Origin: Stygiobacter sp. RIFOXYC2_FULL_38_25
GTDB lineage: Bacteria; Bacteroidota; Ignavibacteria; Ignavibacteriales; Melioribacteraceae
DNA length: 64,000 nucleotides
NCBI GenBank assembly: GCA_001803165.1
Contig: MHAZ01000022.1
Coordinates: 1 to 64,000 of the forward strand
Reading direction: 5' to 3'
Each line of letters begins with the position of its first letter. Within the stretch, counting starts at the first letter, position 1. The translations under genes were made by a program, and so were the position numbers. The notes below the pieces were generated by a model, which was given only the letters and a program-made list of their open reading frames with translations, was not told where the DNA came from and did not search any database. Shown here piece after piece: positions 1 through 51,000 of the stretch.

Positions 1-406
1 AAGTATGACGTTGAACAATTTTAATGCGGGCACGAAGAGCATCGCGAAGAAGACGGTTATCGTTAGAAATTTTATGAGCGACAGGAATGTAATCCATGCG
101 AAGAAGTTGGGCTAAAGTATGCGAATCAACTTTATCTGTTTTGACTTTAGCATAAGCAATAGCTTTAACATACTTGGCATGAGCAAGAACCATGGGAATG
201 TTAAGAGAAGAAAGCAGATCGCCCAGCCAATACCATGTCATAGTTGACTCGACAGTTGTTATGTTCTCGTTGCCGAGATCAGAGAAATACTGAACGAAGT
301 TATGGTTCACATTTTTAATATCTGCTTCTTTGATAATGTTGCCGGAAGAATCAACTGTGGTTAAGTAAGAAGTGAACTTGTGAAGATCGATACCAGTGTA
401 ATACAT
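1..406 (-). mobile_element. IS110/IS1111-family transposase, N-terminal part (truncated by window edge)
   Basis: Reverse-strand translation from ATG at 406: MYYTGIDLHKFTSYLTTVDSSGNIIKEADIKN...TTVESTMTWYWLGDLL...KYVKAIAYAKVKTDKVDSHTLAQLLRMDYIP; GIDLHK and KTDKVDS are typical DEDD motifs of IS110-type transposases. Not in the ORF track because it has no stop inside the window. Confidence 0.9.
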
Positions 407-470
407 AGATGCCTCCAATAAGCAATTGTTGTTGGAGAAACATTAACTGTTTTTTTACTTATTGGAAATA
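407..470 (-). mobile_element. Short terminal non-coding end of the IS110/IS1111 element
   Basis: Only about 60 nt between the transposase start and attC-like sequence; contains 8-bp inverted repeat ccaataag (415-422)/cttattgg (458-465). Exact boundary is inferred. Confidence 0.5.
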
Positions 471-675
471 TCACGCGCCTCAACAGCGACCGCGTCTATG
501 ACGCAGTCGTTTGATGTAGTTATTGGGTTTAGTTTTTCAGAGTAGGTTTGTTGTTAAAGGTTGATTTGCAGTGCATGACAAAATCCGCTAAGAGCGGTTA
601 ATTATAAATAAAAAGGTTGTTGCTAAAAGCGTCATTGTAGTTATGGGCGGCGCTTTAGTTGCAACGCCGTTATAC
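469..675 (+). other. attC-like site 0 (R'' end disrupted by IS element)
   Basis: 5' half cacgcgcctcaacagcgaccgcgtc...cagtcgtttgatgtag resembles the 5' half of attC5; 3' half gttatgggcggcgctttagttgcaacgccGTTATAC. Confidence 0.75.
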
Positions 676-698
676 TTTTTAGGAATGCTAAAAATTGT

Positions 699-2057
699 AT
701 GTTAAATATTGATGATTTGGCAGTAGGAAAATTCTCGTTAGATTTCCCTAAAATTGTTTTAAGTAACAAGAGTGGGAAAGAATACCTTGGGGCCGGGAAT
801 ATATTCCAAGATTCAGATGGTGATTTGCAATTAAAAATGTATTCATATGATGAGGAAGGTTATAGGCTATTTAACAAACTTGGCAAACCCAAACCTGGTC
901 GTATTATTCCCAACAGTCACTATTTTAAATTCAGTGGCAAGGATACTTTTGATCAAGAATGGAAATCTGAGAGAGTTAATTTTGGTTATGACTTATCCGC
1001 TGATTTTAAAAACATTATTATCAAATCAAATATTCACTACATTAAACAAAAGGTTAAAGGGATTGTAAAATTCAATAGGCCTCAATATGTAATCAGATTT
1101 AAGAAAGATATAAGATTCCCAAAAGTTGATTATTATGGCAAAAGTGCAAAATCATATGAAAAGATTAAAAATGATTTTCGAGTAAATATTATTGCAAATT
1201 TTATTCACAATGATTTGGAATTCCTTTTTTATGAAAACGAAAAATGGTATATCGCAGAAGTATTTTCTAACAAAGGTAGACTCAGCGAAAATATCGTAAA
1301 TTATCTTTGTGAAGCTTTACAATTTGTGCTTTCTGCAAATATTTATTGTGTTGTTATAGAAAAATTTGAAGGATATTATGACAGTATCCAAATCAGAAAT
1401 ATCCGCAAATCTAGTCCATCGCATAGAATCCCTCCACCAATAAGTTTTAATTCTGCAAAAACTTCTGATATATGGAAAATGTTTTGCAAATATTATGATT
1501 TTGTTTCTAAAAATAACTCGGTTAATTACCATCCTATATCGCTAAAACTTCACAATCTCATTCAAGCATCTAGCATTTCCTTGGAATCTCAATCATTATC
1601 CATAACTACATTAATAGAAAGTATTGTTATGAATAATTTTGCCTTATATCTCAAAGCAATCGATAAATACGAAATAGATATCGCTAAACTTAAGAAACAT
1701 CTTGTTTCTGATAATTACCAACAAGAGTTTATAGATAGAATTAATGGTTTCTTCCCCTTATTGGTTCGACCTAATCCTAACAATGTTCTAAGAGCGCTAT
1801 TAAATAAAAGACTAATTAAAAAATATCATATAGATACATGGAATGAATTGCGCAACCCGATAGCTCATGGGAAAATAATTGAGTTCAAGGATTATCAAAA
1901 GTATTTAACATTGTGTTATAAATGTCAGTCGCTTTTCAATTTACTTATTTTCCTTCTGATTGAATATCAAGGATATTATAATGATTTCAGCCAATATGGT
2001 TTTAAAATGAAATCGTTTAAAAAAAGTATAACACGCGTCTCAAGCGGAACGCTGTAG
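699..2057 (+). CDS. HEPN-like C-terminal domain protein (RNPIAH motif), cassette C1; function unknown
   Basis: 452 aa ORF; C-terminal ...YHIDTWNELRNPIAHGKIIEF... matches the R-X4-H HEPN catalytic motif (codons 1851-1868). Confidence 0.6.
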   Translation: MLNIDDLAVGKFSLDFPKIVLSNKSGKEYLGAGNIFQDSDGDLQLKMYSYDEEGYRLFNKLGKPKPGRIIPNSHYFKFSGKDTFDQEWKSERVNFGYDLSADFKNIIIKSNIHYIKQKVKGIVKFNRPQYVIRFKKDIRFPKVDYYGKSAKSYEKIKNDFRVNIIANFIHNDLEFLFYENEKWYIAEVFSNKGRLSENIVNYLCEALQFVLSANIYCVVIEKFEGYYDSIQIRNIRKSSPSHRIPPPISFNSAKTSDIWKMFCKYYDFVSKNNSVNYHPISLKLHNLIQASSISLESQSLSITTLIESIVMNNFALYLKAIDKYEIDIAKLKKHLVSDNYQQEFIDRINGFFPLLVRPNPNNVLRALLNKRLIKKYHIDTWNELRNPIAHGKIIEFKDYQKYLTLCYKCQSLFNLLIFLLIEYQGYYNDFSQYGFKMKSFKKSITRVSSGTL

Positions 2058-2192
2058 TGGGTCGTGGTATTTATAGTTTATCATTGTAGTGATAGTTGAA
2101 GAAAGGAAGTAAATAAAAAAAACATAAACAATAAGTCGTTGTATTTGTAGCGGCAACCTTTTGGCGTCCGCTTAAACGCAACGTCGTTAGTA
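2026..2192 (+). other. attC1
   Basis: R'' GTATAAC (2026-2032) overlaps the 3' end of the C1 ORF; arms ctcaagcggaacgc / gcgtccgcttaaacgcaac are complementary with extrahelical bases; R' GTTAGTA (2186-2192). Confidence 0.85.
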
Positions 2193-2203
2193 GGCTATCA
2201 AAA

Positions 2204-2803
2204 TTGTTAGGGAGATTATATTTGAAAAAGTTAATCCTATTTACATTGTTCTTAATACTTATTCTTGTTTCGTGTAAGAATGAAGATAGTATTGTCAATC
2301 AAAATACTTTACACGAATTAGTTCCATTAAAAATTGGTAATTGGTGGGCATTTCAAAGAATAAATTATGACTCAACTGGTAATGCTGTATCAACATTTAT
2401 AGATACCATGAAAGTATTACGCGATACTGTGATACAAAATGAACGATGGTTTATTACAAATTATTATGGCATCTATAGAAACGCAACAAATGGAGTTCGG
2501 TTTTGGGATTCAACTAATAATTCAAGTTATGTTTATCTATATCCTGTAAAAGAGCATGATATGTTCGTGATGGGAAGTGCAATTGTTGAGGTTATATCTA
2601 CAAACGAAAAGCTGAAAGTCCCATATGGTGATATTTCTTGTGTTCACTATAAAGCAACTTTTAGCTCACTAAACAATTTTCATATAAATTATTATTTGTC
2701 TCCAGGAATTGGATTTGTTAGTCTTGAAGGTCCTGCGAGGACAATTAGTGGCAGAAGTTATCTTTACTATCGTGAACAATTAGTGTCTTACTCATTGAAA
2801 TAA
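2204..2803 (+). CDS. Predicted lipoprotein, cassette C2
   Basis: Signal peptide plus lipobox-like LVSC; real start may be TTG at 2221. Confidence 0.65.
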   Translation: MLGRLYLKKLILFTLFLILILVSCKNEDSIVNQNTLHELVPLKIGNWWAFQRINYDSTGNAVSTFIDTMKVLRDTVIQNERWFITNYYGIYRNATNGVRFWDSTNNSSYVYLYPVKEHDMFVMGSAIVEVISTNEKLKVPYGDISCVHYKATFSSLNNFHINYYLSPGIGFVSLEGPARTISGRSYLYYREQLVSYSLK

Positions 2804-2828
2804 TTATTCGCATTGCTTTATTGTTGCC

Positions 2829-3018
2829 TACTAACCCGCTCTTGCACCCGACCGCATTTTTTCATAGCGGCATTTGGGAAATTATTGAGTTTGGTTAACA
2901 AAGTAAGCGTAGCAATAAAGTTTGTTCTAATAAATAAATTAGTTAAAAATTATTGGCATTGCTTCTTAGTTTCGTCATTGCTGTTATGGGCGGCGCTTTA
3001 GTTGCAACGCCGTTATAT
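2829..3018 (+). other. attC2
   Basis: R'' (gcc)TACTAAC, complement of the C2 start GTTAGTAggc; 3' end tgttatgggcggcgctttagttgcaacgccGTTATAT. Confidence 0.85.
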
Positions 3019-3821
3019 TGTTTGAAGATATGAAAAGAATTTTCAAAAATATTGTTATGGGATTGACAATAATATTGTTCCTTAACTCGTGCAATTCTAT
3101 CACTGAATCAATTCCGTCTCCTCTTGAATACCCAACTAATTTATTCTCAATTGGTAGAGTAAAAGCCGATTCTATCCAAAATTCAATTCGAAGTAATGAT
3201 TTCTTTTCTTACATAGATGAATATGGTTTATTCTCATTCTCTGGAACATTAGGTAGAGGGAACTCAAATATCACTGATAAAAACGTTGCAATCCGCTTGG
3301 CAAAAGAAGCTTTACTCAAATATTCCAAATATTCAAATGTTAGTGATACTACAAAACTAGAATTAAATGAAGCTACTAATTATAATCCTTCACCACTTCA
3401 TTTTACCGATTGGATTGTATCATTCAAGAACCAGAAGTATAATGGAATTGAAGTTTTAAATACTGGCATAATCGTGGTTCTTCATAATCAAGTAAGTCAA
3501 ATAATTGGGCATCATTTCAAAGAAATATCAATTCCTATAAATGGCACATTATCAAAAGATAAATTAGAAAATATATTGGTTGGTAAAAAATTAGAAATGA
3601 TGTGTAAGACTAAAATAGAAATAACAATAACTCATGAAATGATACTAAAAAATAAAATTGCCCAAAATATTATTTGGCGTGAGCTAAATGGTATTATAGA
3701 ATTAAGACTTACTTGGAATATTCCTATATCAACTTCTAATGATGATAATGTTAGTTGGAATGTATGGGTAGATATATTAAGCGGTGAAATATTATTCTAT
3801 AGCCCAACTTTTATATGTTGA
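3018..3821 (+). CDS. Predicted lipoprotein, cassette C3 (real start probably ATG at 3030)
   Basis: 267 aa; MKRIFKNIVMGLTIILFLNSCNS signal peptide/lipobox. Confidence 0.65.
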   Translation: MFEDMKRIFKNIVMGLTIILFLNSCNSITESIPSPLEYPTNLFSIGRVKADSIQNSIRSNDFFSYIDEYGLFSFSGTLGRGNSNITDKNVAIRLAKEALLKYSKYSNVSDTTKLELNEATNYNPSPLHFTDWIVSFKNQKYNGIEVLNTGIIVVLHNQVSQIIGHHFKEISIPINGTLSKDKLENILVGKKLEMMCKTKIEITITHEMILKNKIAQNIIWRELNGIIELRLTWNIPISTSNDDNVSWNVWVDILSGEILFYSPTFIC

Positions 3822-3827
3822 AAAACA

Positions 3828-4015
3828 GTATAACCAGTTCTTCAAGACCGACCGCTTTAAACGTAGCGGCATTTGTGTAGTTATAAAGCTACGTTGTAAA
3901 AGTTAGTAGCTCTTTGAGTGTAGTTAACAAAATGAAATAATAAATAATTATTGGCGTTGATTTTACAAAGCTGCAAAGTTGTGCTGGGCGGCGGCTTAAA
4001 ACAATGCCGTTATAC
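3828..4015 (+). other. attC3
   Basis: GTATAACcagttcttcaagaccgaccgc ... tgggcggcggcttaaaacaatgccGTTATAC; arms complementary with an extrahelical base. Confidence 0.88.
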
Positions 4016-4026
4016 GTGCAAGATTA

Positions 4027-4661
4027 TGAGTGAAATAAAATATCATAGATTGTTTTGGTGGATAGAAGGCATATCAGCTATTCTACTCTTTATTGCCTTA
4101 TATACAAATTTAATACACAAAGTTGATTTGATAATTAGTATTGGTATTTATCTATTATTATCATCAATCTTTTATTTCGCCCTTGACTTACGTGTTGTTA
4201 CAAAAGTATCTGATAAGTTAAAAGACGAGCTAAAAGATTACAACAACCCCAATATAGAGCGATTAAACAAAGCTTCTGTCTTTATTAATCTAATAAAAGT
4301 CCTAGTACTGTTATTTATTATAGTTATTGGTAATAAATCCATGGTACAGTTAAATCATTGGATTAATGCAGTTGTGATCGTTATGTTTTTCGGTGTATTA
4401 TTAATTCTAATATACCTCTACCTAAAAAACGTATTGTTGTCTTACAGTTATCCAAATACATCATTAATGCATTTAATTAAGAACTTTATTTTTTATTATA
4501 ATAAAAAGGATAATAGATCAATAGTAGATAAACCTATAGGCATAGGTTCAACAATAAATTTTGCTACAAAAGAAGGTAAGTTCATTTTTTTATTGTTGCT
4601 TTTTCCACCAATTGTAATAGTAGTATCAATTTTAATTCTCAAATCACTTGGTAAAATATAA
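4027..4661 (+). CDS. Hypothetical multi-pass membrane protein, cassette C4
   Basis: ATG at 4027 (MSEIKYHRLFWWIEGISAILLFIALY...); several hydrophobic segments. The track ORF begins at 3951, but that start lies within attC3. Confidence 0.6.
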
Positions 4662-4667
4662 ATGCAC

Positions 4668-4817
4668 GTATAACCTGCAACTCAAACCGACTACTGTATT
4701 CGGCTTATTATTTGCTGTTTAGCTTTGCAGTGTTTTTTGAAAATAAGAAGTAACTAGATAATATAATCAGTAAAAGAAAAAACGTTGGCAGCGTAAACCT
4801 TTTGGCAGCCGTAGTGA
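4668..4817 (+). other. attC4 (3' core degenerate)
   Basis: R'' GTATAAC with 12-nt complement to the C4 start; 3' arm aacgttggcagcgtaaaccttttggcagccGTAGTGA is not a consensus core. Confidence 0.6.
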
Positions 4818-4883
4818 ATAATAATTGACACAAAATTTGAAAATAAGGAAGTCCAATTAAGCTATTAAAAAAACGAGACTATT

Positions 4884-5372
4884 ATGTTTGTTAAAGAAGC
4901 GACTGTTGTAATTTTGGTAGTAGCATTTTTTTCAGTAGCGCTAGCAGAAAATAATTCTGATTTCTATTATTCTAAAGGAGATTCAACAAAAATGACACCG
5001 CAAGAAATAATAATTGCAAAAGAAAAAGCAATACTAGACAGATGGATAACCGGCGATACATTCGGATTTATTGAAGCTGCCGCCGAAGAAATAACCTATT
5101 TTGATCCCGGTTTAGAAAAACGCTGTACAGGTAAAAAAGAATTTTATGATTGGATTGCCCCTTTCAATGGGACATTCAGCTTTCCCAACTATGAATTTAT
5201 TGATCCGCAGGTTCAAATGCATGGTGATGTTGGTGTTCTTACTTTTAATTTTATTGGGTTTATGCAGGATGGCAGTAAAGAGTATTTTAATACAACTGAA
5301 GTATACAGACTGATTGATGGGGATTGGAAGCTAATAAGTTCTCACTGGTCACAAACTAAACCTAAAAGATGA
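4884..5372 (+). CDS. Exported NTF2/SnoaL-like (DUF4440-type) protein, cassette C5
   Basis: 162 aa, signal peptide; ILDRWITGDTFGFIEAAAEEITYFDP...TTEVYRLIDGDWKLISSHWS is typical of the fold. Confidence 0.65.
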   Translation: MFVKEATVVILVVAFFSVALAENNSDFYYSKGDSTKMTPQEIIIAKEKAILDRWITGDTFGFIEAAAEEITYFDPGLEKRCTGKKEFYDWIAPFNGTFSFPNYEFIDPQVQMHGDVGVLTFNFIGFMQDGSKEYFNTTEVYRLIDGDWKLISSHWSQTKPKR

Positions 5373-5464
5373 TATTTGATTAAAAAGAAATGTTCATTTA
5401 CTATATGATTAGTCAAAGAAAATATATTTATTACATAGGCAGTAGTTAAATAAAGTACAAAACG

Positions 5465-5585
5465 GTATAGCCCTTTATTTAAGCCGACCGCTTCTTCGAT
5501 ACAGTTGTTTGAAGTAAAATAACGTTGCTTTGATAATTGCTGGTCTGTTGTTATGGGCGGCGGGTTAAGCGCAACGTCGTTGGGC
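5465..5585 (+). other. attC5
   Basis: GTATAGCcctttatttaagccgaccgcttc ... gttatgggcggcgggttaagcgcaacgtcGTTGGGC. Confidence 0.75.
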
Positions 5586-5603
5586 ATCATATTAATAACA
5601 AAT

Positions 5604-5718
5604 GACCTCTGAAATATTAAGACTAAGTCATGGTGAGCTTGTCGAACCATGACAATACAAACTAAATTGTCACACTTCGACAGGCTCAGTGTGACACTAA
5701 ATTAATTATTCAGAGGTC
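5604..5718. repeat. Dumbbell palindromic repeat (outer inverted repeat plus two hairpins)
   Basis: gacctctgaa (5604-5613)/ttcagaggtc (5709-5718) enclose gtcatggt-gagcttgtcga-accatgac (5627-5653) and gtcacact-tcgacaggctc-agtgtgac (5669-5695); the two 11-nt loops are complementary at 10/11. Confidence 0.85.
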
Positions 5719-5776
5719 TCAACAAATGAATCTGTAATAAATTATTCTATGTTTTTTAATTAAAAGGTAGGTAGAA

Positions 5777-6637
5777 ATGTCAAAGTTCAGAAAATTAGCC
5801 CCCCTTATTTTTGTCATTTTGTTTCCCTCTTTGTCATTATCTCAAGTAAGAGAATCGTCAGAAAAAATCACGGTAATGACACTAGGGGTTTTTCATTTCA
5901 ATTTTCCTAATCTGGATGTACAAAAAGTTGATGATAAAGATAAGATTGATGTTTTAGAAGAAAAGTATCAAAAGGAAATTGTCAAGATTATAGGTGCACT
6001 AAAAAAATTCAAGCCAACCAAGATTGCGATTGAGGCAAATCCTGCTTCCCAAAAAAAAATTGATTCATTGTATAAAGCATATAGGTTTGGCAAACATTCA
6101 CTTGGAAGAAATGAAATTGAACAGTTGGGATTCCGCCTAGCGAGTGAACTGAAAATTGAGAAGTTGGAATGCGTTGATACATGGGGCAAAACTTATGAAA
6201 GTCTAAACTATTTGCTTATTGATAGCTCTTCCAGGGCGAAAGCGTTTGAGCAATATTATTTCAACAATCCAGATACTATATATAAGAAGAAAAGCTCCGG
6301 TAAAAGTCTTTTAAAAATTGAAGGGATTACAAATAATTTACTATACTTGAATGATTCCCAAATTATAAAAGAAAGTTTGGGACCTTATCTCATTGGACAT
6401 TTTAAGTATGAGGAAAAAGCAGATGATTTTACCGGAGTTGATTTTGAAACTGGGAGATGGTTTAATCGTAATCTGAGAATATTTCGTAACATACAAAGAA
6501 TTACAAAAAGTACTTCTGATAGGATCCTCGTCATTTTTGGAGCTGGGCATATGAACATACTAAACTATCTTTTTGAATGTTCACCTGAATACAAGTTAGT
6601 TAGTCCGGAATCATTCTTAAGAAAAGCAAAAAAATAA
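5777..6637 (+). CDS. DUF5694-like exported protein, cassette C6
   Basis: 286 aa; VMTLGVFHFNFPNLDV N-terminal and FGAGHMNILNYLFECSPEYKLVSP C-terminal motifs; signal peptide. Confidence 0.65.
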   Translation: MSKFRKLAPLIFVILFPSLSLSQVRESSEKITVMTLGVFHFNFPNLDVQKVDDKDKIDVLEEKYQKEIVKIIGALKKFKPTKIAIEANPASQKKIDSLYKAYRFGKHSLGRNEIEQLGFRLASELKIEKLECVDTWGKTYESLNYLLIDSSSRAKAFEQYYFNNPDTIYKKKSSGKSLLKIEGITNNLLYLNDSQIIKESLGPYLIGHFKYEEKADDFTGVDFETGRWFNRNLRIFRNIQRITKSTSDRILVIFGAGHMNILNYLFECSPEYKLVSPESFLRKAKK

Positions 6638-6647
6638 ATAGGAAAAT

Positions 6648-6904
6648 GCCTATCCGCCGCTCAATACGGACAGCCCCGCAATACTACTGCAGGGTAAACT
6701 ATTTTCAGTGCGGTGTCCGCCAGAAAACTGCGAACAGGTTTGTGTAATTGAAAAGTTGTGTAAAAAAGTAAATTGCTTTTTGAATGTTGTTAAGTAATCA
6801 AAGTTATTAATGAATTATAGTCGTAGGTTTTTCCTCCGAAGGAGTCCCTTCGGGAAAAGCTGCATTGATGTGTTGGCGGCGGCTTAAAAACAACGCCGTT
6901 ATTC
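6648..6904 (+). other. attC6 (R'' degenerate)
   Basis: atGCCTATC compared with expected atGCCCAAC; 3' end gttggcggcggcttaaaaacaacgccGTTATTC. Confidence 0.65.
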
Positions 6905-7004
6905 CGTAAAAGGAAAGATTGAGCTGTAATTCTTTTCTTAGCAAATTTATTCTGGTAAGTGAGCTTAATGGAGGCTCGCTTCTGTCCGGAGGTATCTGAA
7001 CGTT

Positions 7005-8069
7005 ATGTCACATAATCGTGCGAATAAACCTCAAGGAAAATATATTATGAAAATAATTAACCAAACAAGGCGTAACTTCCTTAAGATGGCTGGCTTTGCG
7101 GCATCAGCATTGACATTTCCCACTAAGATTTATCCAACACATCTCATAGAGCCCAAGAATCAAGGAGACAAGTTTCCGATAAGTTACCAGCTCAGATTGT
7201 ACAGCGGACTCTTGCGGTTGTATGATGATTTCGATCCCTTTCAAGACGAACAAGCACCCAACTTTGAATACGAGTTTTCCCACCCTGAACTCGAGCGATT
7301 GCGCGAAAAGTATCAGCTCGATCTTATCGCCGGAGCCGGGGATGAATGGTCAAAGGCTCTTAACTTAATGAAATGGATATCAGAGCACGTAGGATATAAA
7401 GCAGACATAACAAGTTCACTGCCGGAAGTCTGTAAAACGCTTCCAATGAATTCAATTGGGCTATTAGAGTACTCATTCAATAAGGGTCAAGATTATGGAA
7501 TTAACTGCTACATGCATTCTATCGTGCTTACAGAGGTCTGCTTATCTATAGGATTGAAAAGTCGTATTGTGTCACTAAATCCTCTTAATCCATATGATTA
7601 TGATAATCACTTGGTCACAATAGTTTGGATTACTAGATTCTCAAAATGGGTGATGCTTGACTCCTCATACCATGGGTATCTACGCGATTCCGGGGGAGAG
7701 ATTCTCAACCCTTGGGAAGCAAGAGATCTGCTTTGTCGTCATAAGACCATTGTTTGCAACGAAGAGCTAGTATATAATGGTATTAAAAATAATTCAGAGG
7801 ATTACCTGCGTTACCTAGCTAAGAACTTATTCTACATGCATTCGCCATGCTTCAGCGGGTTCAACAGCGCCACGACTTCAGAAAAACCGTGGCTCACACT
7901 TACTCCCAAACATTTCGATGTTTGCAAAAGAGAGACATATAACATGAAATGGCGCGCGGAAGGAAAAAATGGCAATTGGGAAAAAGATGAACTTGAGCGG
8001 TTACTGAAGGATGAATGCTACGTTGTTGGCACTTCATCTATCGCATCATTCTCCCAAAAGCCTATTTGA
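7005..8069 (+). CDS. Transglutaminase-like protein with Tat-type signal, cassette C7 (start may be 7047)
   Basis: TRRNFLKMAGFAASALTF twin-arginine signal; GINCYMHSIVLTEVCLSIGLKSR...DNHLVTIVW...WVMLDSSYHGY pattern of transglutaminase-like Cys/His/Asp. Confidence 0.7.
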   Translation: MSHNRANKPQGKYIMKIINQTRRNFLKMAGFAASALTFPTKIYPTHLIEPKNQGDKFPISYQLRLYSGLLRLYDDFDPFQDEQAPNFEYEFSHPELERLREKYQLDLIAGAGDEWSKALNLMKWISEHVGYKADITSSLPEVCKTLPMNSIGLLEYSFNKGQDYGINCYMHSIVLTEVCLSIGLKSRIVSLNPLNPYDYDNHLVTIVWITRFSKWVMLDSSYHGYLRDSGGEILNPWEARDLLCRHKTIVCNEELVYNGIKNNSEDYLRYLAKNLFYMHSPCFSGFNSATTSEKPWLTLTPKHFDVCKRETYNMKWRAEGKNGNWEKDELERLLKDECYVVGTSSIASFSQKPI

Positions 8070-8133
8070 GCAGTCCTCTGATAATGACTATGGGTTTTTA
8101 TCAGTAACCACTGGTGCTGTGCAATATTTTGCG

Positions 8134-8343
8134 GTATAACCCGCAAATCAAAGCGACTGCCTTAAACGTTGTGGCATCTGCCAGGAAACTGCGGACAGGT
8201 TTGTGTAATTGAAAAATTGTGTAACAAAAGTAAATTGCTTTTTGAATGTTGTTAAGTAATCAAAGTTATTAATAAATTATTGGCGTTGGCTTTCAGTGTT
8301 GCATTGTTGTTCCGGGCGCGCGTTAGCCACAATACCGTTGGTT
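8134..8343 (+). other. attC7
   Basis: gcgGTATAACccgcaaatcaaagcgactgcc ... gggcgcgcgttagccacaataccGTTGGTT. Confidence 0.8.
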
Positions 8344-8397
8344 GCTAAGTATAATGAATAATATTTGTAACTGAATAATAATATATCATTAAAAGCT

Positions 8398-8859
8398 ATG
8401 GCAAAAGTTAAAATTGATGATGTGGTAGAGCATTTAGAATTTGCAAGTGATATGAACAAATCTTTCTTAAATAAAAAGACCGGTAAAATCCATTTAATTC
8501 CGGAAGAATTAGAGAGATATGCTGAACCGGATTTTGAAGATGAAGATTTCATTCCGGAATGGGAAAAAGAAATTATACCAGTAATAAAGGATATTAAACA
8601 GAATCCAAATGATTATATAGAAATCCCGGACCGGTTTTATATAAATGAATATGCAATTATGGAAAGATTTTGCTTGTCCTTAGAAGAAGCTCTTCGTGAT
8701 AAAATGTATGCTGCAATAAAAGGAAGTGGTGCATTCCGAAGATTTAAGGATAGCATTCATAATTATGGAATTGCTGATGATTGGTATAAATACAAAGAAG
8801 AATCTTTTAGAGAAATAGCTATAGAGTGGTGTAAAGATAATGATCTTGAATACTATTGA
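8398..8859 (+). CDS. UPF0158 family protein, cassette C8
   Basis: 153 aa; EDFIPEWEKEIIPVIKDI...YIEIPDRFYINEYAIMERFCLSL...AFRRFKDSIHNYGIADDWYKYKEESFREIAIEWCKDNDLEY. Confidence 0.75.
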   Translation: MAKVKIDDVVEHLEFASDMNKSFLNKKTGKIHLIPEELERYAEPDFEDEDFIPEWEKEIIPVIKDIKQNPNDYIEIPDRFYINEYAIMERFCLSLEEALRDKMYAAIKGSGAFRRFKDSIHNYGIADDWYKYKEESFREIAIEWCKDNDLEYY

Positions 8860-8879
8860 TGATCAATTACAAAAGAAGC

Positions 8880-9083
8880 AACTAACCCATTCTTCAAACC
8901 GACCGCTTTATAAGTTGCGGTATTTGTAATGGTAGAGATGTATTGGAAAGTAGTTGCAATACAACCAAGTTTATAAATAATTATTAGTATTGGTTTTCCT
9001 CCGAAGGAGAATATCTGCATAGCAAAAAACGCAGGACTGGTTGTACAAAACCGTTATGGGCTGCGCTTTAGCATCAGTAATTA
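8880..9083 (+). other. attC8, terminal site of array A (degenerate 3' end)
   Basis: agcAACTAACccattcttcaaaccgaccgc, complement of C8 start gttGgttgct (9/10); 3' arm gttatgggctgcgctttagcatcaGTAATTA lacks a consensus core. Confidence 0.65.
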
Positions 9084-9166
9084 GAATTTTGAAATAATTT
9101 ATCGCATATAGTATCTATAAATTTACTTCTGAACGCAAAAAGTCCAACATAATTACCGGGATAGAT

Positions 9167-16444: not shown

Positions 16445-17917
16445 TTAGCGTCCTGCTATTTCTGTCAGAATAGATTTCAGCAGCCGGTAAAATTTATCAA
16501 CATCTTCAATCTTAACCTTTTCATCCGGCGAGTGAGCTCCTACAATAGTAGGACCGAATGAAATCATATCAAGCCCGGGATACTTATCGCCGAGAATTCC
16601 GCATTCAAGTCCGGCGTGAACAGCTTTTATTTCCGGTTCTTTGCCAAATAATTTTTTGAAAACTCTTTTGGAAAGTTTTAGAATGTTTGAGTCAACATTC
16701 GGCTGCCAGCCGGGGTAGCCATCGCCGGTGGTAACTTTAGCGCCGGCTAATTCGAAAACAGAGCGAACGCTGAGAGCAACATTTTTCTTTGCACTTTCAA
16801 TCGAGCTGCGCTGGCTTGTTCCAATTGTTAATTCGTAAGATGCTGTGTTAAGTGTAGCTAAGTTAGTCGAAGTCTCAACCAAACCCGGAATGTTTTGGTT
16901 CATTGAGATAACGCCATGCGGCATTGCCAAAATTGTTTCTATAATTTTCTTTTTAAAGGAATCTTTGTATGCATTCATTATTGTAACCGATGAATGAGCT
17001 TTCTTTTCGAACTGAACTCTAATTTCCGGATCGGAATATTTGTATTCGAGCGAACACTCTATCGAAAATTCGTTAATCAGTTCCCGGATTGCGGACTCAT
17101 TCGCTTCATCAATAAAAATTATTGCTTCGGCTTCTCGGGCAATTGCATTACGTTTAGAACCGCCTTGCATGTAAACCAATTGGTAATCATACTTTTGCAA
17201 ACGGGAAAGTAAAATTCCCATGAGTTTAATTGAATTCGCTCTCCCTTCGGCAATGTTTATACCGCTGTGCCCACCTTTCAATCCACTGATAAAAATTAAA
17301 TACGGTTCATAGCTTGTAACAATGTCCTCATATTCAACTCTAAAAGTACCGGCTGAGTCCATTCCGCCGGAACATCCAACATAGAAAGCTCCATCTTCTT
17401 CTGTATCTAAATTCAGCAAAATTTTTCCGCTGATGAATCCTTTCTGTAAATTGTTGGCGCCGGTCAGCCCGGTTTCTTCATCAACTGTAAAAAGTAATTC
17501 AAGCGGACCGTGATCAAAATCGTGTTCGGTTGCAATTGCTAATGCAGCGGCTGCTCCAATTCCATTATCGGCGCCAAGTGTAGTTCCATTCGCTGTGATC
17601 CACTCGCCGTCTCTCACTAATTCAATCGGGTCTTTAGTAAAATCGTGTTCGGTTCCTTTATTTTTCTCGCAAACCATATCAACGTGGTTTTGAATAACAA
17701 CAGTTGGTTTGTTTTCGCAGCCCGGAGTTGGGGGAACAAGAATTACAATATTGCCGGTTTCATCTTCCCGGAAATCAAAATTGTTTTGCCCGGCAAAGTT
17801 GCGGAGAAACAACCTTATTCTTTCTTCGGACTTTGATGGACGGGGAACCTGGCTCAAATCATAAAACCGTTTCCAAACTATAGATGGGTACAAACCTTCA
17901 ATTGCTTTTAAAGACAT
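16445..17917 (-). CDS. pepD: Aminoacyl-histidine dipeptidase / cytosol nonspecific dipeptidase
   Basis: 490 aa; VIQNHVDMVCEKNKGTEHDFTKDPI...TLGADNGIGAAAALAI...KGGHSGINIAEGRAN...HAGLECGI. Confidence 0.92.
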   Translation of the reverse strand: MSLKAIEGLYPSIVWKRFYDLSQVPRPSKSEERIRLFLRNFAGQNNFDFREDETGNIVILVPPTPGCENKPTVVIQNHVDMVCEKNKGTEHDFTKDPIELVRDGEWITANGTTLGADNGIGAAAALAIATEHDFDHGPLELLFTVDEETGLTGANNLQKGFISGKILLNLDTEEDGAFYVGCSGGMDSAGTFRVEYEDIVTSYEPYLIFISGLKGGHSGINIAEGRANSIKLMGILLSRLQKYDYQLVYMQGGSKRNAIAREAEAIIFIDEANESAIRELINEFSIECSLEYKYSDPEIRVQFEKKAHSSVTIMNAYKDSFKKKIIETILAMPHGVISMNQNIPGLVETSTNLATLNTASYELTIGTSQRSSIESAKKNVALSVRSVFELAGAKVTTGDGYPGWQPNVDSNILKLSKRVFKKLFGKEPEIKAVHAGLECGILGDKYPGLDMISFGPTIVGAHSPDEKVKIEDVDKFYRLLKSILTEIAGR

Positions 17918-18038
17918 AATTTCTCCTAATTAGTTTCTTTTAACCAGCGCTTAAGAACAAGATTCAGATTACTTGCCGGTTATAAGCGTTTTCCGATTAT
18001 TCGAACAAATGAAATTTCGATTTATGAATTAAGAAATC

Positions 18039-18284
18039 TTATTCTTCTTCGGGTAAATCTTCGAACTCTTTTCTTTTGTTTTCAAGCCAATCATTCATTA
18101 TTTCTTGTGATTTCATAAGTTCTTGCATTTTCGCCATTGCCTTAAGATGTTTCTCATCACCCTTTTGATACATTTCCATTCCATGCCTTTTGCTCATCTC
18201 TGCAATTTCTTCAAAAGTTTTGGCACGGAATGTTTCCTCACAAGCTCCGCCTAATTGTGAGCAACTCATAGTTTTCATAATCAT
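18039..18284 (-). CDS. DUF1059-like small protein
   Basis: MKTMSCSQLGGACEETFRAKTFEEIAEMSKRHGMEMYQKGDEKHLKAM. Confidence 0.75.
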   Translation of the reverse strand: MIMKTMSCSQLGGACEETFRAKTFEEIAEMSKRHGMEMYQKGDEKHLKAMAKMQELMKSQEIMNDWLENKRKEFEDLPEEE

Positions 18285-18387
18285 ACCATTATTTTATTAA
18301 AAAAATATTTTCTTTTCTTGTAAAAAGCCAACTCAATATCCTTAGTAAGAGTATAATTTACAACTGTTAATCTCTATCGTTAGCTGT

Positions 18388-18599
18388 TTGAAACGCTGCG
18401 TTCAGCTCGCCGCTTATTACAATAATGCTAACTCTTTCAACGCAACATTATTCTTAAAACCTGCCCGCCGAGCTTAGGTCGGGCGGGAACAAAACCGGGT
18501 AAACTCGCTACGACCGAGTAGAAGAAAGTTTACCTCGTGCTTTTTTATTTGGCTGTCTGCGTTGCCTGTCCGATGTTTTTATAGGGAATAGAGTTTTAT
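18388..18599 (-). other. attC-B (degenerate cores)
   Basis: Minus strand: tatggTATAAAAC ... agcggcgagctgaacgcagcGTTTCAA. Confidence 0.55.
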
Positions 18600-18616
18600 A
18601 CCATAATCCAATTGTA

Positions 18617-18991
18617 CTAAGTCCTTTTGTTAAATTTCACTCCATCTAAATCCTTGAAATGTGCATCTTGTGTCCATACAATTGAATCACTCATTTTGGC
18701 GGTTGTATAAATTATACTATCTGCCATTGGTATTTTAAACTCATAACTGAATTTTGCTGCCTGAATAGCTATTGAAGGAGTTACATCAATAACTTTAGCT
18801 TGCTGCATTAAACCTACTACTTGTAGTGCCGTGTTTTCATCTTTTTCCAACAATACCTTCTTATATATTTCATAAATATTAATGACAGATACAATCAATT
18901 CATCCGTATTCTCAATTACATGAGCAAAGAATTTTGCGTTTTTGCCGTCTGCTAAATATTCCAACCAGCCTGAAGAGTCAACTAAATTCAT
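18617..18991 (-). CDS. PIN-domain toxin (VapC-like)
   Basis: MNLVDSSGWLEYLADGKNAKFFAHVI...PMADSIIYTTAKMSDSIVWTQDAHFKDLDGV. Confidence 0.88.
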   Translation of the reverse strand: MNLVDSSGWLEYLADGKNAKFFAHVIENTDELIVSVINIYEIYKKVLLEKDENTALQVVGLMQQAKVIDVTPSIAIQAAKFSYEFKIPMADSIIYTTAKMSDSIVWTQDAHFKDLDGVKFNKRT

Positions 18992-19194
18992 AGTCTATCC
19001 TCCTCCCTTTCAATACTTGTATCTATACCCTTAAGAAAACCACGAGCTTCTTTAATATTTTTTAAGAGAATAAACTCTATTCTTTCACCAAATTGTAAAA
19101 TTTGCATTCTTTGACCGGGCTTCAATTTTAATTTATTCCTAATTTCCTTGGGAATCACAACCTGGTATTTGGGTGATATTTTTACTGTTGTCAT
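18988..19194 (-). CDS. AbrB/MazE/SpoVT-type antitoxin
   Basis: MTTVKISPKYQVVIPKEIRNKLKLKPGQRMQIL; overlaps the PIN gene by 4 nt. Confidence 0.9.
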   Translation of the reverse strand: MTTVKISPKYQVVIPKEIRNKLKLKPGQRMQILQFGERIEFILLKNIKEARGFLKGIDTSIEREEDRL

Positions 19195-19291
19195 TACATT
19201 TTCCTATTCATCTTACGATGTAATATATCGTTAAATTTTTTGCACACCAAATATTGTCGATAGCAACAACTCGCCCATAATTTGCAGTATG

Positions 19292-19543
19292 GTATAACGC
19301 ATTGTTGTAAGCAGCACCACAGAACAGCTATGACGGTTCTGCCAACGCAACTTTAATTTCGAATACTTGCCCGCTGTCTTCTGGCGGGAATCAGTTTTGT
19401 ATTACAAGCAACTTTTAAGAACAACTTACTTTGTTCCGAAGGAATCCCTTCGCGAAAAACCAAACCCGTAAAACCACTATGACCGAGTAGAATTTATCTG
19501 CCGAGGGCAGAGAAGAGGTCGGGTGCAAGAGTTGGTTATATTG
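19292..19543 (-). other. attC-A
   Basis: Minus strand: ATATAACcaactcttgcacccgacctc (resembles attC2 taacccgctcttgcacccgaccgc) ... gctgcttacaacaatgcGTTATAC. Confidence 0.8.
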
Positions 19544-19589
19544 CAATTTCTCATTTAAAACAATCTATAAATATTATTTTCCTCGCCAA

Positions 19590-19964
19590 TTAATTAACCT
19601 TACCCAGATTTGAAAATATTATCAAATATAATAGCAATAATATCCCACCAACAATTATGAACGTATTAAGGAATAACTTTATTAAGTCAAATTCACGAAC
19701 AGAAATATCTTTCACTTTATCTAGTAGTATTTTTTTTTCTCCTAATCTGTTATCAACAAATACTATATACTCCTCAATAGTTTTTATATCAATAATATTT
19801 TCAAGATAGACAATTTCATTATTACGCAAAACAATCTTCAATTGCATTGGCTCAGCATCTTTCATTGTATAGTTGTTGCCAATCGTCCTATTCGAAAAGC
19901 AACCGTTTATCGAAAAAAACATAAATGCTACAATGACACATGAAAGATAATTTTGTTTTTTCAT
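19590..19964 (-). CDS. Predicted small lipoprotein with C-terminal TM segment, cassette of cluster B
   Basis: MKKQNYLSCVIVAFMFFSINGCFSN signal/lipobox; FIIVGGILLLLYLIIF near the C-terminus. Confidence 0.65.
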   Translation of the reverse strand: MKKQNYLSCVIVAFMFFSINGCFSNRTIGNNYTMKDAEPMQLKIVLRNNEIVYLENIIDIKTIEEYIVFVDNRLGEKKILLDKVKDISVREFDLIKLFLNTFIIVGGILLLLYLIIFSNLGKVN

Positions 19965-19982
19965 TACTTTGCAATATAACTT

Positions 19983-21062
19983 CTAGTTATGCCGAATATT
20001 CAAAATGTCGCCATCTAAGACAATGTATTCTTTTCCTTCTAAGCGCCAGGCGCCATGGTCTTTGCATTTTGCAAATGAGCCATGCTTCATAAAATCATTA
20101 TAAGAAACCACTTCCGCACGAATGAAGCGGTTAAAGAAATCTGTATGAATAACGCCCGCAGCTTGCTGCGCCGTGTAATTCTTTCTAATTGTCCACGCGC
20201 GGCATTCATCTTCCCCAACTGTAAAGAAAGACTGCAACCCGAGCATCTCATAACTTGTGCGTAAAATTTTGCTGAGCGCAGATTCTTTAATTCCATAATC
20301 TTGCATAAACACAGCCTGGTCTTCCTCACTCATTTTGGAAAGCTCAAGTTCAATCTTTGCGAAGAATGGAATAATTACGGCGTGAGATTTTCCAATTTTC
20401 GCTTTTATAGCCTCAACTTCAGCATCAACATTAGCGATGGAGTTTTCATCAAAGTTAATTGCGATTGCCAGCGGCTTTAATGTTAATAGCTGGTAACCGG
20501 AAAGTAGTTTCAGCTCGTTTTCGTCCAGCTTCAAGGAACGTAGCGGCAATTCTTGCTCTGCGTGTGCATAGCATTTTTCAATTACCGGCATTTCTCTTTT
20601 CAACCGGTCATCTTTCGATTTCAGAATTTCCTTTTTGATTTTTTCAATGCGTGTTTCAAGAAATGCTAAATCCGTGAAGAGAAATTCGGTTTCTAAAAAT
20701 TCTATATCGCGCAAAACATTAATCGAATTCATCGGGTGCATCACGGAATCTTCCTGAAATCCCCGAACCACATAAAACAAAGCGTCGTTGTTTTTAACCG
20801 CGTTCAAAAATGTAGATGTGATTTTCACTTTATTGTCATCGGACATTTTGAGTCCGGGAATATCGTAAACTTCTATTGTAGCGTTAACGTGTTTCTTAGG
20901 ATTAAAAATCGCGGAGAGTTTATCTAAACGGTCATCCGGCACTTTAACCACTTCAATCGAGGCTTCTTCCTTGCCGGCTTGCGAATGTGAACTCCCCCGA
21001 GCTAATGTTTCGAATAATGTACTCTTACCGGAATACTGGAGACCGACCAAACCAATTTGCAT
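19983..21062 (-). CDS. ychF: Redox-regulated ATPase YchF
   Basis: MQIGLVGLQYSGKSTLFETL; FFTVGEDECRAWTIRKNYTAQQAAGVIHTDFFNRFIRAEVV; EYIVLDGDILNIRHN. Confidence 0.93.
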   Translation of the reverse strand: MQIGLVGLQYSGKSTLFETLARGSSHSQAGKEEASIEVVKVPDDRLDKLSAIFNPKKHVNATIEVYDIPGLKMSDDNKVKITSTFLNAVKNNDALFYVVRGFQEDSVMHPMNSINVLRDIEFLETEFLFTDLAFLETRIEKIKKEILKSKDDRLKREMPVIEKCYAHAEQELPLRSLKLDENELKLLSGYQLLTLKPLAIAINFDENSIANVDAEVEAIKAKIGKSHAVIIPFFAKIELELSKMSEEDQAVFMQDYGIKESALSKILRTSYEMLGLQSFFTVGEDECRAWTIRKNYTAQQAAGVIHTDFFNRFIRAEVVSYNDFMKHGSFAKCKDHGAWRLEGKEYIVLDGDILNIRHN

Positions 21063-21335: not shown

Positions 21336-21482
21336 AACCCCACGCTTAAGAGCCCGTGCTAATATTAAAATCTTAATGGTAGCCGCAAGCTTCAGCTTGC
21401 GCTTCTTAAATAAAACCGCAACTTGAAAGTTGCGCCTACCAACTTTTTTGTAATTTTCACACAACCTTTTAAGCGTGGGGTT
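21336..21482. repeat. Dumbbell palindromic repeat (nested inverted repeats with two hairpins)
   Basis: Outer 14-nt perfect inverted repeat aaccccacgcttaa (21336-21349)/ttaagcgtggggtt (21469-21482); inner ggtagccgcaa/ttgcgcctacc; hairpins cgcaagct-tc-agcttgcg (21384-21401) and cgcaact-tgaa-agttgcg (21417-21434). Confidence 0.85.
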
Positions 21483-45086: not shown

Positions 45087-48000
45087 TTACTTCACCAGAA
45101 TCATTTTCTTGCTTAGAACAAAATCTTTAGCCTCTAACCTAAAAAAGTAAATTCCATTGGATAATTGAGAAGCATCAAAATTTTTGGAATATTTTCCAGC
45201 GCTTAATACTTGATTCACCAGTATTTCAACCTCCTGCCCCAGCGAATTATAAACAGTTAAACGCACCATTCCTTCTTTAGGCAAATCAAATTGAATTTTT
45301 GTAGTTGGATTAAACGGATTAGGATAATTTTGGTACAACTTATAATCTATTGGGATAGCATCAGAAATTTTTTCGACACTAACTATAACCGGGTTCGTTG
45401 TTAGTGAAGAAATTTTTGTTTCGAAGAATTTCCCATCAGTAATCGTAACCACAAGCAGAAACTGTTTACCTGCCTGGCTGGTTTTAGGTACCCAACTAAA
45501 CAATCCGCTACTACTCAGCGTCGCGCCATCAGGACCGGAATCTAAATTATATGTAACAACATCGCCATCGGGATCAACTGATAGATACTGATAGTTAAAT
45601 GCAACTTGAGTACTATGCACATTTATTGTGGTGTCCGGCAAAAATCTAACAAACACAGGAGGATGATTTACTTTTTCATAGACAGCAGTTAAAACTCTGT
45701 TGCTAATTATTTCGAACTGCAAAACTGAATTAGTAGTGAGTGTATTTCCATTTTCAATCCATTGCGAAAATTTATATCCATCAGACGGAATAGCTGTTAA
45801 CTTAACTTGTGTACCGTGATTATAATTAGTTAGATCCGGTTCTTTAGTTACTGTTCCATTTACCGAAGTAATTGCAATAGTGTATGTATTAATAGAATAG
45901 TTTGCTGTAATGTTTTTATCTCCATCCATATTAATAGTTACCGGATTAACTGCTCCACTTGCGTCTCCGCTCCAATTGGTAAAAGAATACCCGACAGTTG
46001 GTGTAGCAGTTAACTGAACTTGCGAACCATAATTGTAACTTGCTTGGTCAGGACTTTTTGCGACAGTACCATTAATTGAAGTGATAGAAAGCGTAAACGT
46101 ATTAATAGAATAATTTGCCGTTATGTTTTTGCTGCCATCCATTATAACAGTTAGCGGATTTTCAGAACCGGTTGCGTCTCCACTCCAACCTATAAATGAG
46201 TAACCTGTTATAGGTACAGCTGTAATTTGGACTTGTGCACCATGAGCATAACTTACTTGATCAGGATTCTTTGTAATTGTTCCATTTACAGATATAACAG
46301 TTAGTGCATAAGTACTAACAGAATAATTTGCAGCGATGCTCTTATTTCCATCCATATTTATAGTAATGGGATTTGCCGAACCGCTAACATCTCCGCTCCA
46401 CCCAACAAATGTATAACCAGTTATAGGTGAAGCCGTTAACTGAACTGTTGAACCATGGTTGTAGTTTTCTTGATCCGGGTTCTTGATTACCGATCCATTT
46501 TCCGAAGTGATTGTGAGTGAGTAAGTATTAATAGAATAATTTGCAATTATGTTTTTGTTGCCGGTCATTGTAACAGTTATTGGATTTGCAGAACCACTCG
46601 CATCACCACTCCACCCGGTAAACGTATAGCCTGCTGATGGTGTAGCCGTAATTTGTACTTGTGTACCATGAGTATAACTAGCCAGATCCGGGTTCTTGAT
46701 CACTGTACCATTAACAGAAGTTATTGTAAGCAAATATGTATTGATAGAAGCTGTAAAATTTTGATCAGTCAGATTACATGTAATGTTGCTGCATGTTCTA
46801 CATGATGGAGAGAAAGTAACTCCAAGTGCATTAGGAGTGATAGTTCCACACCACCCGTAACTAACTGAAATCGAAAAGTTACCAGCACCATCCGCGCTAA
46901 CCGTCTTATCAGTTACATCGTGATAGCTTAACACAGCATTGCTTATTCCGGCATTACCAGAAATAATTAGGTAACTCGGCAGAGTTTTAACCAAAATTCT
47001 ATTAGAATTGGAAGTTGCCCCGCTTGCATTAAATGCTCTAATCCGGTAATAGTAGGATGTATTTTCAGTTAGGTTTGAGATAGATAAGGTTGTAATATTT
47101 CCAACATCTCTATTATTAAAACCACTAACAAAACTTGTGAACAAACTATCAGTAGCCAAATCAAGAAAATATTTATCTGCACCAATGGATGCACTCCAAT
47201 TTGCTACAAAACTTGTCTGGGTAATGTTAGTAGCATTTGCGGCGACAGGTACTGTGGACATCGTTATTAGACCTACAATATTGGAATTATTACTTGTTCC
47301 ACTATTATTATAGGCTCTAACTTGATAATAGTAAGTAGCTCCGGGGGTTAAGCCGGTTATATTCAAGGAGGTAACATTCCAAACATCTTTGTTTTGATAA
47401 CCAGCGACATAACTTGTAAATCCGTTATCAGTTACCACATCAAGAAGGTAACCCGCAGCTCCGGTAGTAGGATTCCAATTAGCTTCAAAACTGGTTTGAG
47501 TAATATTTATTGCGCTATTGGCTATTGGCGCTTGAGATACGGTTATTAAACTAATTGTGTTGGAATTATTACTAGTACCGCCAATATTAAAAGCCCTCAC
47601 TCGGTAATAATAATTTGTTCCGGCAGTTAATCCGTTTATGTTATAAGTAGAAACATTTCCTACATCTCTATTCTGATAACCAGCGACATAACTTGTAAAT
47701 CCGTTATCTGTGGCTACATCTAAATAATACTTTGCCGCTCCTACAGATGCGTTCCAGTTTGCATCAAAACTACTTATCGTAATTGTAGTTGCAGATGTAG
47801 CTACCGGTGCTGCCGGCAAAGTTATCAATCCTATTATATTTGAGTTGACACTAGTTCCGCTAGCGTTAAAAGCTCGCACTCGGTAATAATAATTTGTGCC
47901 CGAGGTTAAACTTGCTATAGCTAAAGTTGTTACATTACCAACATCTTTGTTTTGATAACCGGCTACATAACTTGTAAATCCAATATCTGTAGCTACATCT

Positions 48001-51000
48001 AAATAATACTTTGCTGATCCTACCGATGTATTCCAGTTTGCATCAAAGCTACTTGTGGTAATTGTTGTGGCGTTCGTAGCAACCGGTGCTATTGGCATTG
48101 TTATTAAATTAATCACATTAGAGTTGGAACTTGTTCCACTCACATTAAAAGCTCTTACTCGGTAATAGTAATTTGTCCCGGCAATTAATCCGTTTATGTT
48201 AAACGTAGAAACATTTCCTACATCTCTATTCTGATAGCCAGCGACATAACTGGTAAATCCGTTATCTGTCGCCATATCCAAGTAATACTTCACCGCTCCT
48301 ACCGATGCATTCCAGTTTGCATCAAAACTACTTATCGTAATTGTCGTTGCATTTGTTGCAACCGGTGCCGCCGGCAACGTTATCAACCCAATCGTATTTG
48401 AGTTGCCACTTGTTCCACTTGCATTAAAAGCTCTTACTCTGTAATAATAATTGGTCCCGGACGTTAATCCGTTTATGTTATTCGTTGTTACATTGCCTAC
48501 ATCTTTATTCTGATAACCGGCTACATAACTTGTAAATCCATTATCCGTTGCTACATCCAAGTAATACTTCTCTGCACCTACCGAGGCGTTCCAGTTTGCA
48601 TCAAAACTATTTGTCGTTATCGTTGTTGCATTCGTTGCAACCGGTGCACTTGGCAATGTTATTAAACTGATTACGTTGGAGTTATTTCCGGTCCCACTTC
48701 CATTATAGGCTCTCACCCGGTAATAATAATTTATACCCGGAAGTAGCCCCACAACATTATGTGTTGTTACATTGCCTACATCTTTGTTTTGATAACCTAC
48801 CACGTAACTCGTAAATCCGTTATCTGTCGCTACATCCAAGTAATATCCGCTTACTCCTACTAACGCATCCCAGTTTGATGTAAAGCTTGTCGTTTGTATC
48901 GTGGTTGCTGATGTCGCTACGACCGCACTTGGTGTTGTTAATACTGTAATTACTCCAGAGTTTTCACCGGTTCCATAATTATTGTATGCCTCTACCCGGT
49001 AATAATAGGTTGTGTTGGAACTCAGTCCAGTCACCGAATATGTGGTTACGTTGCCTACATCCAGGTCATCAAATCCGGCTACATAACTCGCAAAATTGGA
49101 TACTGTGGATACATCCAATTTGTATCCGGTAGCTCCGGTAACTGCATTCCAGTTGGCGCTAAAGCTCGTTGATACAACTAATGTTGCTGCTGTTGATGTT
49201 GGAGCTCCCGGTATCGTTGCTAATGCTATTGTGTTAGAACTTCCGCTTGTTCCTCCAGCATTATTTGCTCTCACTCGGTAATAATAATTTGTTCCCGATG
49301 TTAATCCATTTATGTTATACGTTGTTACATTGCCTACATCTTTATTTTGATAACCTACCACATAACTCGTAAATCCGTTATCTGTCGCTACATCTATAAA
49401 ATACTTTGCCGCTCCTACAGATGCGTTCCAGTTTGCATTGAAACTGCTTGCAGTAATCGTTGTGGCTGCTATTGCAACTGGAATCGTTGGAGCTGTAAGA
49501 ACTGTAATAATTCCGGAATTGCCGCTAGTGCCGCTTACATTATAAGCCCTAACACGGTAATAGTAATTAGTATTTTCACTCAATCCAGATATTGAGAATG
49601 TAACAACGTTTCCGACATCTTTATTTTCGAAACCATCTAAGAAGGCACCTGCACCAAATGCATTATCGGTTGAAACATCTAATTTGTAGCCAGTTGCCGA
49701 AGCAGCCACATTCCAGTTTGCATCAAAACTAGTTCCTGTTACATTAGTCCCGGCTGCTGAAATTGGATTAGGGGGAACAGTAACCAAGCTAATTACATTT
49801 GAGTTACTGCTGTTACCAGAGACGTTAAATGCACATGCCCGATAATAGTATGTTGTTCCTGCTGAAAGATTTGTATTAACCGAATAAGTAGTAACGGCTC
49901 CAACATCTTTGTTCTGATAACCGGCTACATAACTGCTAAATGTGTTATCAGTAGCTACGTCTAGATAATACTTTTCTGCACCTACCGATACATTCCAGTT
50001 TGCGCTAAAACTAGTTTGAGTAATTGAACTGGCTGATGTTGCCACAGGAGCTGTTGATAGCGTCATTGTTGTTATCACTGCAGAATTGCCACTCGTACCG
50101 CTCATGTTGGTTGCCCTGACGCGGTAGTAATAAGTTGTTCCTGCCGAAAGATTAGTATTGATAGTGTATGTAATTACATTGCCCGCATCCAAATTTTCAT
50201 AACCGGAAACAAAAGTTCCGGCAGCAAATGCAGCATCGGTAGATACATCCAAATAATATTTTGTAGCTCCGGTCGAGGCATTCCAATTGGCATCAAAACT
50301 CGAAGTAGAAAAATTTGTCGCAGCAATACTAACCGGATTGGGAGGAATTGTGATTAAGTTTATTGCATTTGAATTTCCACTTGTGCCTGTAGCGTTATAA
50401 GCTCTCACTCGGTAATAATATGTGGTGCCTGCAGATAGGTTTGTATTAACAGTATAGCTTAGAACGTTGCTAACATCAATATCTTCGTACCCGGTAACAA
50501 AGTTACCAGCAGCAAAAGTTGCGCTAGTTGATACATCTAATCGGTATCCTGTTGCGGAAGTAACAGCTTGCCATCCTGCGACAAAACTAGTCTGAGTTAA
50601 CGATGATGCTGCCAAAGCTATTGGCGGAATTGGAATTGTTAATACTGTGACAGTGCCTGAACTTGCACTTTCACCGTTTGCATTATATGATCTAATCCGA
50701 TAATAATAAGTTGTACCACCAGTCAAACTAGTGACGGAATATGTTGTAACATTACCAACATCTTTATTTTGAAATCCAGCTACAAAACTTCCGGCTCCAA
50801 AATTTAAATCTGTCGAAACGTCAAGCTTATATCCTGTAGCTCCTACCGAACTATTCCAATTAGCGCTGAAACTCACTTCGGCTTTATTTGTTGCTGCGGT
50901 TTCAACAGGACTAGGCGGCGCAAGTGTTACAATTATTACGTTTGAATATCCGGTAATACCATCAATATCATATGCTCTTAGGCGATAATAATAAGTTAAA

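Follow-up and report, generated by a model that had tools for sequence, protein, structure and literature searches.

Probable integration of a small gene cassette array at a secondary chromosomal site between ychF and pepD in a Stygiobacter genome

How did a predicted lipoprotein gene, a putative toxin–antitoxin pair and a DUF1059-like gene come to lie between two genes that adjoin each other in related bacteria? The question arose in a window of 64,000 nucleotides, the whole stretch of DNA analysed, from Stygiobacter sp. RIFOXYC2_FULL_38_25 (contig MHAZ01000022.1). Cassette-like units had been described here in an initial annotation, which attributed them either to off-site cassette integration or to inversion of part of a larger array.

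The ychF–pepD interval in Stygiobacter and its relatives

The insert extends from 17944 to 19979 on the minus strand (2,036 bp) and comprises a lipoprotein cassette, an AbrB/PIN toxin–antitoxin cassette and a third unit with a DUF1059 gene. Its upstream chromosomal neighbour is ychF (19983..21062, minus strand; Pfam YchF-GTPase_C), which is syntenic in relatives and whose 3′ end is the target. Downstream lies pepD, an M20 peptidase gene identified by Pfam (16445..17917, minus strand), which adjoins ychF in relatives. We took the order of ychF and pepD from the 18 same-family genomes for which the retrieved stretch covers both genes. In all 18, ychF is followed directly by pepD, with a spacer of 14–62 bp in 17 of them and of at most about 200 bp in the remaining one (G006). 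The closest relative with an intact site, G003, whose YchF is 91% identical, has a spacer of 21 bp, compared with 2,065 bp in the Stygiobacter window. A copy of the DUF1059 ORF was looked for in G003 and was not found.

These 18 relatives with ychF beside pepD provide the empty sites expected of a secondary-site (attG) insertion. The toxin–antitoxin and lipoprotein units thus sit between genes that are adjacent elsewhere; the order pepD-DUF1059-PIN-AbrB-lipoprotein-ychF is not conserved in the 18 relatives, and the proposal of off-site integration is supported by the uninterrupted ychF–pepD junctions, including that of G003. The extent given initially to the cluster was right as to its repeats and units, but it missed the DUF1059 unit and the true right edge near 17944.

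Cassette units and attC sites of the insert

Cassette 1 (19298..19979, minus strand) encodes a predicted lipoprotein of 124 aa (19590-19964), for which no Pfam match was found, and is absent from this position in relatives. It starts with GTTATATTGCAA at 19969-19980, and the complement, TTGCAATATAAC, forms its end at 19535-19546 on the minus strand, with 12 of 12 positions matching. Cassette 2 (18394..19297, minus strand) carries genes for an AbrB/MazE-type antitoxin (18988-19194; Pfam MazE_antitoxin, 34.4 bits) and a PIN toxin (18617-18991; Pfam PIN, 51.9 bits), a plausible toxin–antitoxin system judging by these domains. It starts with GTTATACCATA at 19288-19298 and ends with TATGGTATAAAAC at 18593-18605 on the minus strand, matching at 11 of 11 positions apart from a 2-nt AA insertion. 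Both pairs of complementary R″ copies lie where the initial annotation had placed them, at the two ends of the same unit.

Cassette crossover takes place between G and TT, so that the start of a cassette was once paired with its own R″ in a single stem. Units 1 and 2 behave as integron gene cassettes in this respect: each begins with the TT of G|TTRRRY and has an R″ that pairs with that beginning, not with the ends of its neighbours. The same matching was assessed in 12 cassettes from array A, at the beginning of the window, and from the integron on contig C8 of the host genome, where own pairs scored 77 against a mean of 40.7 for swapped pairs (permutation p <= 1e-5). Among 3,000 dinucleotide shuffles of the insert, 21 (~0.7%) produced a 12-nt inverted repeat beginning no more than 25 nt from the left end; such a repeat is therefore only moderately unlikely by chance when taken alone and needs outside support. 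A homologous AbrB/PIN cassette recurs in genome L140 between GTTATACCGTA and TACGGTATAAC, with a PIN part that is 87% identical. The ends of the two cassettes differ by a paired (compensating) R′/R″ change, as expected if the ends pair. The closest PIN homologues come from Melioribacter and Ignavibacteriales records. Only one attC model match was detected near PIN homologues at ten loci of other genomes, indicating that most of these homologues lie outside a recognisable cassette.

Unit 3 (17944..18393, minus strand), with a DUF1059-like ORF at 18039-18284, is absent between ychF and pepD in relatives. Its start and end match at 4 of 12 positions, failing the own-end test, and no attC model match was found in it; an R″ was sought at GTTTCAAAC, where complementarity fails. 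By eye, GTTGTAA and TTATAAC give a 7-nt match with one G-T pair. At the right edge (17937..17986, minus strand), the inverted repeat CTTATAACCGGC...GCTGGTTAAAAG is a candidate short attC (b3), with a fold z-score of only -1.3, and the right junction reads GG|TTAAAAG. Of the DUF1059 homologues in two relatives, one occurs in an ordinary setting and the other follows a stretch that by eye resembles attC. Unit 3 is inserted DNA; a cassette nature and an attC of its own are candidate assignments, not proven ones. A PADLOC search found no defence gene in the insert.

The attC sites were assessed with two covariance models: R1, a first and narrower one built from 10 sites, and R2, built from 50 sites, none of them from the ychF–pepD insert. 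Ten sites from array A and the C8 integron align and form R″/R′ and L″/L′ stems, the latter with one unpaired base. Over the 50 sites, the covariation score was 0.320, against 0.125 +/- 0.012 in shuffles and <= 0.071 when the partners were slid. The site of cassette 1, b1 (19288..19546, minus strand), consists of R″ at 19535-19546 and the R′ of the next cassette at 19288-19298. It is the top R2 match (19290-19543, minus strand; 31.1 bits, E 1.2e-4 over the remaining 54.8 kb), followed by a match of 14.1 bits; R1 gave it 7.2 bits, which is not significant. According to R2, b1 has the R and L boxes and the covarying stems of an attC site, with several L-stem pairs mismatched. The site of cassette 2, b2 (18386..18605, minus strand), was not found by R1 or R2; it shows local similarity to b1 and to attC sites of the family. 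It has a 36-nt stretch in common with b1, a length reached in none of 2,000 shuffles, and a similar stretch of 68 columns with an attC of relative G095; its similarity to family sites was reached in 0 of 200 shuffles. From these resemblances, b2 is best read as a site of the same attC family that has decayed. In plain folding, the attC sites of the insert were weak in array form; when folded as circles, with their own R′, they have predicted terminal stems.

Array A (466..9088, plus strand), with nine or so sites matched by R1, runs in the direction opposite to the insert. The initial annotation had assigned both arrays to one attC family, and the attC-A arm on which it relied is 91% identical over 22 nt to the array-A arm at 2832-2853. 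Common membership stands for b1, recovered by R2, whereas for b2, a decayed site without a model match, it is supported by local similarity; the minus-strand covariance search recommended there was accordingly successful for the first site and not for the second. Weak R2 matches recur in the window at 47393-49952 in steps of ~279 bp, and probably reflect the internal repeat of one gene. An Rfam scan of the window returned an SRP RNA and a tRNA only. Two long imperfect inverted repeats were observed in intergenic DNA, at 5604-5718 and 21336-21482 (arms of 53 and 69 nt), possibly repeat elements.

The attI-like junction and the origin of the insert

In integrons of this family, the attI sites adjacent to intI end in a core like CATAAgTAATAG|TT. 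We built a weight matrix from ten such intI-adjacent cores and scored all 2,641 G|TT sites of the window on both strands. The best match was the left junction of the insert, CGGCATAACTAGAAG|TT, located at the stop codon of ychF (19980..19994, minus strand; crossover after the G at 19980). The crossovers at both edges fall at G|TT outside any attI or attC, as AAG|TTATATT at the ychF stop codon and as GG|TTAAAAG on the right, and the rejoined target reads CATAACTAGAAGTTAAAAG. The last YchF codons appear to read like an attI core, a resemblance seen at this one site; it would explain both the place and the direction of the insert. The locus is not a complete integron: intI lies on contig C8, and only an attI-like core is present here, flanked by ychF coding sequence.

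The cassette cluster at ychF–pepD is real, and we consider it very probable, from the junctions, repeats and empty sites taken together, that a small cassette array was put at a secondary chromosomal site by an integron integrase. The IntI of the family would have acted in trans, with its integron located at another place in the genome, capturing the cassettes as single-stranded attC hairpins, and the attI-like core would have set their direction, which is that of ychF and pepD. The first cassette would have entered at ychF, and later ones would have joined at attC or come together with it as one circle; subsequent decay of b2 and b3 would have fixed the insert in place. Weighing against this account are the lack of a covariance-model match for b2, the failure of unit 3 in the own-end comparison and the division of the host intI between two frames. 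Cassettes usually lack promoters, making read-through the likely source of expression, and those of the insert may be read from the ychF–pepD transcript. Across the attC places surveyed, the gene before the first cassette was co-directional at 30 of 35 (p 2e-5, with a crude gene call).

Inversion of part of a larger array, the other origin proposed initially, would mean that two or three cassettes of array A were flipped or moved by ~9 kb through homologous recombination. Array A and the insert do belong to the same attC family and run in opposite directions 9 kb apart, but ychF, pepD and their neighbours keep their usual order around the insert, its flanks are contiguous in relatives and nothing else in the interval was seen inverted. 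Moreover, on the left the insert is bounded precisely by a G|TT crossover that has an attI-like core, and the own-end rule of independently inserted cassettes holds for cassettes 1 and 2, leaving this origin very unlikely. We hold just as little for a former complete integron or attI platform that lost its intI and attI, even though other places in the genome have attI-like sites without intI, because ychF coding sequence occupies the left side of the crossover, where a platform would have no room, and relatives have none at ychF–pepD. Slightly less credible again is that each unit is a transposon- or MITE-like element with its own terminal inverted repeats. Units 1 and 2 each have such repeats, of 11–12 nt, yet these differ between the units, sit at the R boxes of attC sites and are of a kind also present in 12 array cassettes, and a Pfam search found no transposase in the insert. 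Chance repeats around ordinary conserved genes could in principle yield the inverted-repeat feature alone, as in the ~0.7% of shuffles, but the empty sites refute this reading, the gene set being absent at ychF–pepD in 18 relatives, and b1 was found by the attC model; we regard it as the least probable of all.

Integration by an integron integrase at a secondary site is a known kind of event; here the recipient would be a natural genome and the target a host sequence that resembles attI. Most of what is known of off-site cassette insertion comes from laboratory systems and plasmids, and the origin of CALIN elements (at least two attC sites with no intI nearby) is often unclear. Secondary-site (attG) integration has been reported by Loot et al. 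2024, as cited in PMC12901181 and PMC12444791, and by Recchia and Hall 1995 and Francia et al. 1993, as cited in PMC10127599; PMC12901181 describes attG sites as unlike classical sites. The ychF–pepD insert resembles such events in having cassettes outside attI and attC, a G|TT crossover, host genes on both sides and no intI nearby. It differs from the attG reports in that it was found in a natural genome whose relatives have the site empty, consists of several units in a row and occupies a target that resembles the attI core of the family. It is in part like a CALIN, with several units carrying attC, of which b1 is clear and b2 decayed, and with no intI on this part of the contig. Only b1 was found by a covariance model, and the empty site shows that the units originated by insertion, not by integron decay. 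The program used to find CALINs does not report single-attC places by default.

Scattered cassettes and attI-like sites in the genome and family

The host IntI (TIGR02249) is encoded on contig C8 (C8:48919-49853; L020:10857-11856), where the gene breaks at a T/A run into two overlapping frames. In relatives, intI is intact, in one open frame; the split may reflect either genuine loss or an error in sequencing. The C8 intI runs in the same direction as the cassettes and towards them, with attI located after its 3′ end. The usual description of an integron is of a single attI next to a single intI (PMC3607928), and chromosomal integrons with intI running towards attI are known as the Treponema type (PMC3607928). 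The C8 integron shares this arrangement, while the family differs in having further attI-like sites without intI at other places. Integrons had earlier been reported in Ignavibacteriae (PMC9024848). Array A (window 1-9130) begins at the contig start, and the C8 integron, of the same attC family, runs to the contig end (55,648); they may be one array broken in assembly. IS110-family transposase genes were observed beside or inside attC sites (window 2-406 and L095:5484-6500 by Pfam; L142 by eye), as if an IS110-family element targeted attC.

R1 retrieved 37 matches at E <= 1 in the host genome, at ~16 places; the two clusters initially recognised both exist, but they are only part of the attC places of this genome. 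R1 matches were present in 63 of 76 genomes of the family. Besides intI and an array, the single-contig genomes G072 and G013 contain distant solitary attC sites, and G091 has 31 attC sites at ~20 places, with no IntI at E <= 1e-40. Two further inserts were found in the host genome by comparison with relatives. Between pheS and pheT, 648 bp replace the spacer of 26–27 bp of three same-genus relatives, and the cassette-like unit (L101:4914-5560, C1 near 125 kb) has a weak attC (29.2 bits, E 0.0027); at a C3 locus, ~5.7 kb correspond to 8 bp in G003.

At many attC places, the first cassette is preceded by sequence ending in an attI core. Such attI-like sites without an intI gene were found before scattered cassettes at L086, L087, L088, L092, L093, L094 and L095, and at loci of G072, G091 and G095. 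The likeness to the C8 attI extends over ~130 bp at some places (84% over 135 bp at L095; 74% at L139), and the leader at several sites resembles the sequence that precedes the C8 intI on its 5′ side, including a promoter-like TTG..TAAGTT and a GGTTCC...GGAACC hairpin. Significant IntI remnants were detected upstream of 2 of 22 attI-like sites. The exact attI core pattern has six occurrences in the host genome, of which five lie at intI or attC places; the reversed pattern has one. A literature search, in whose coverage most subscription journals were not included, found no paper on dispersed attI-like sites without intI.

The surprising part of this case is its setting, a family with scattered cassettes and attI-like sites. 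The insertions described here are recognised in wild genomes by the empty sites of relatives, and the one at ychF–pepD lies at a target resembling attI. If the proposed origin is true, it can be asked which host sequences the integrase accepts, whether host operons give expression of the cassettes placed in them and whether an attI site lacking intI can function in trans. We tentatively suggest, as a possibility that we do not yet favour, that the normal state across the family is a distributed integron, in which a single integrase acts in trans on many docking points around the chromosome. The docking points would be integrase-less attI platforms, several with a conserved promoter-and-hairpin-like leader, together with attI mimics in host sequence, the end of ychF among them. 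In that event, the cassettes of these bacteria would be spread over the whole chromosome and not kept in one array.
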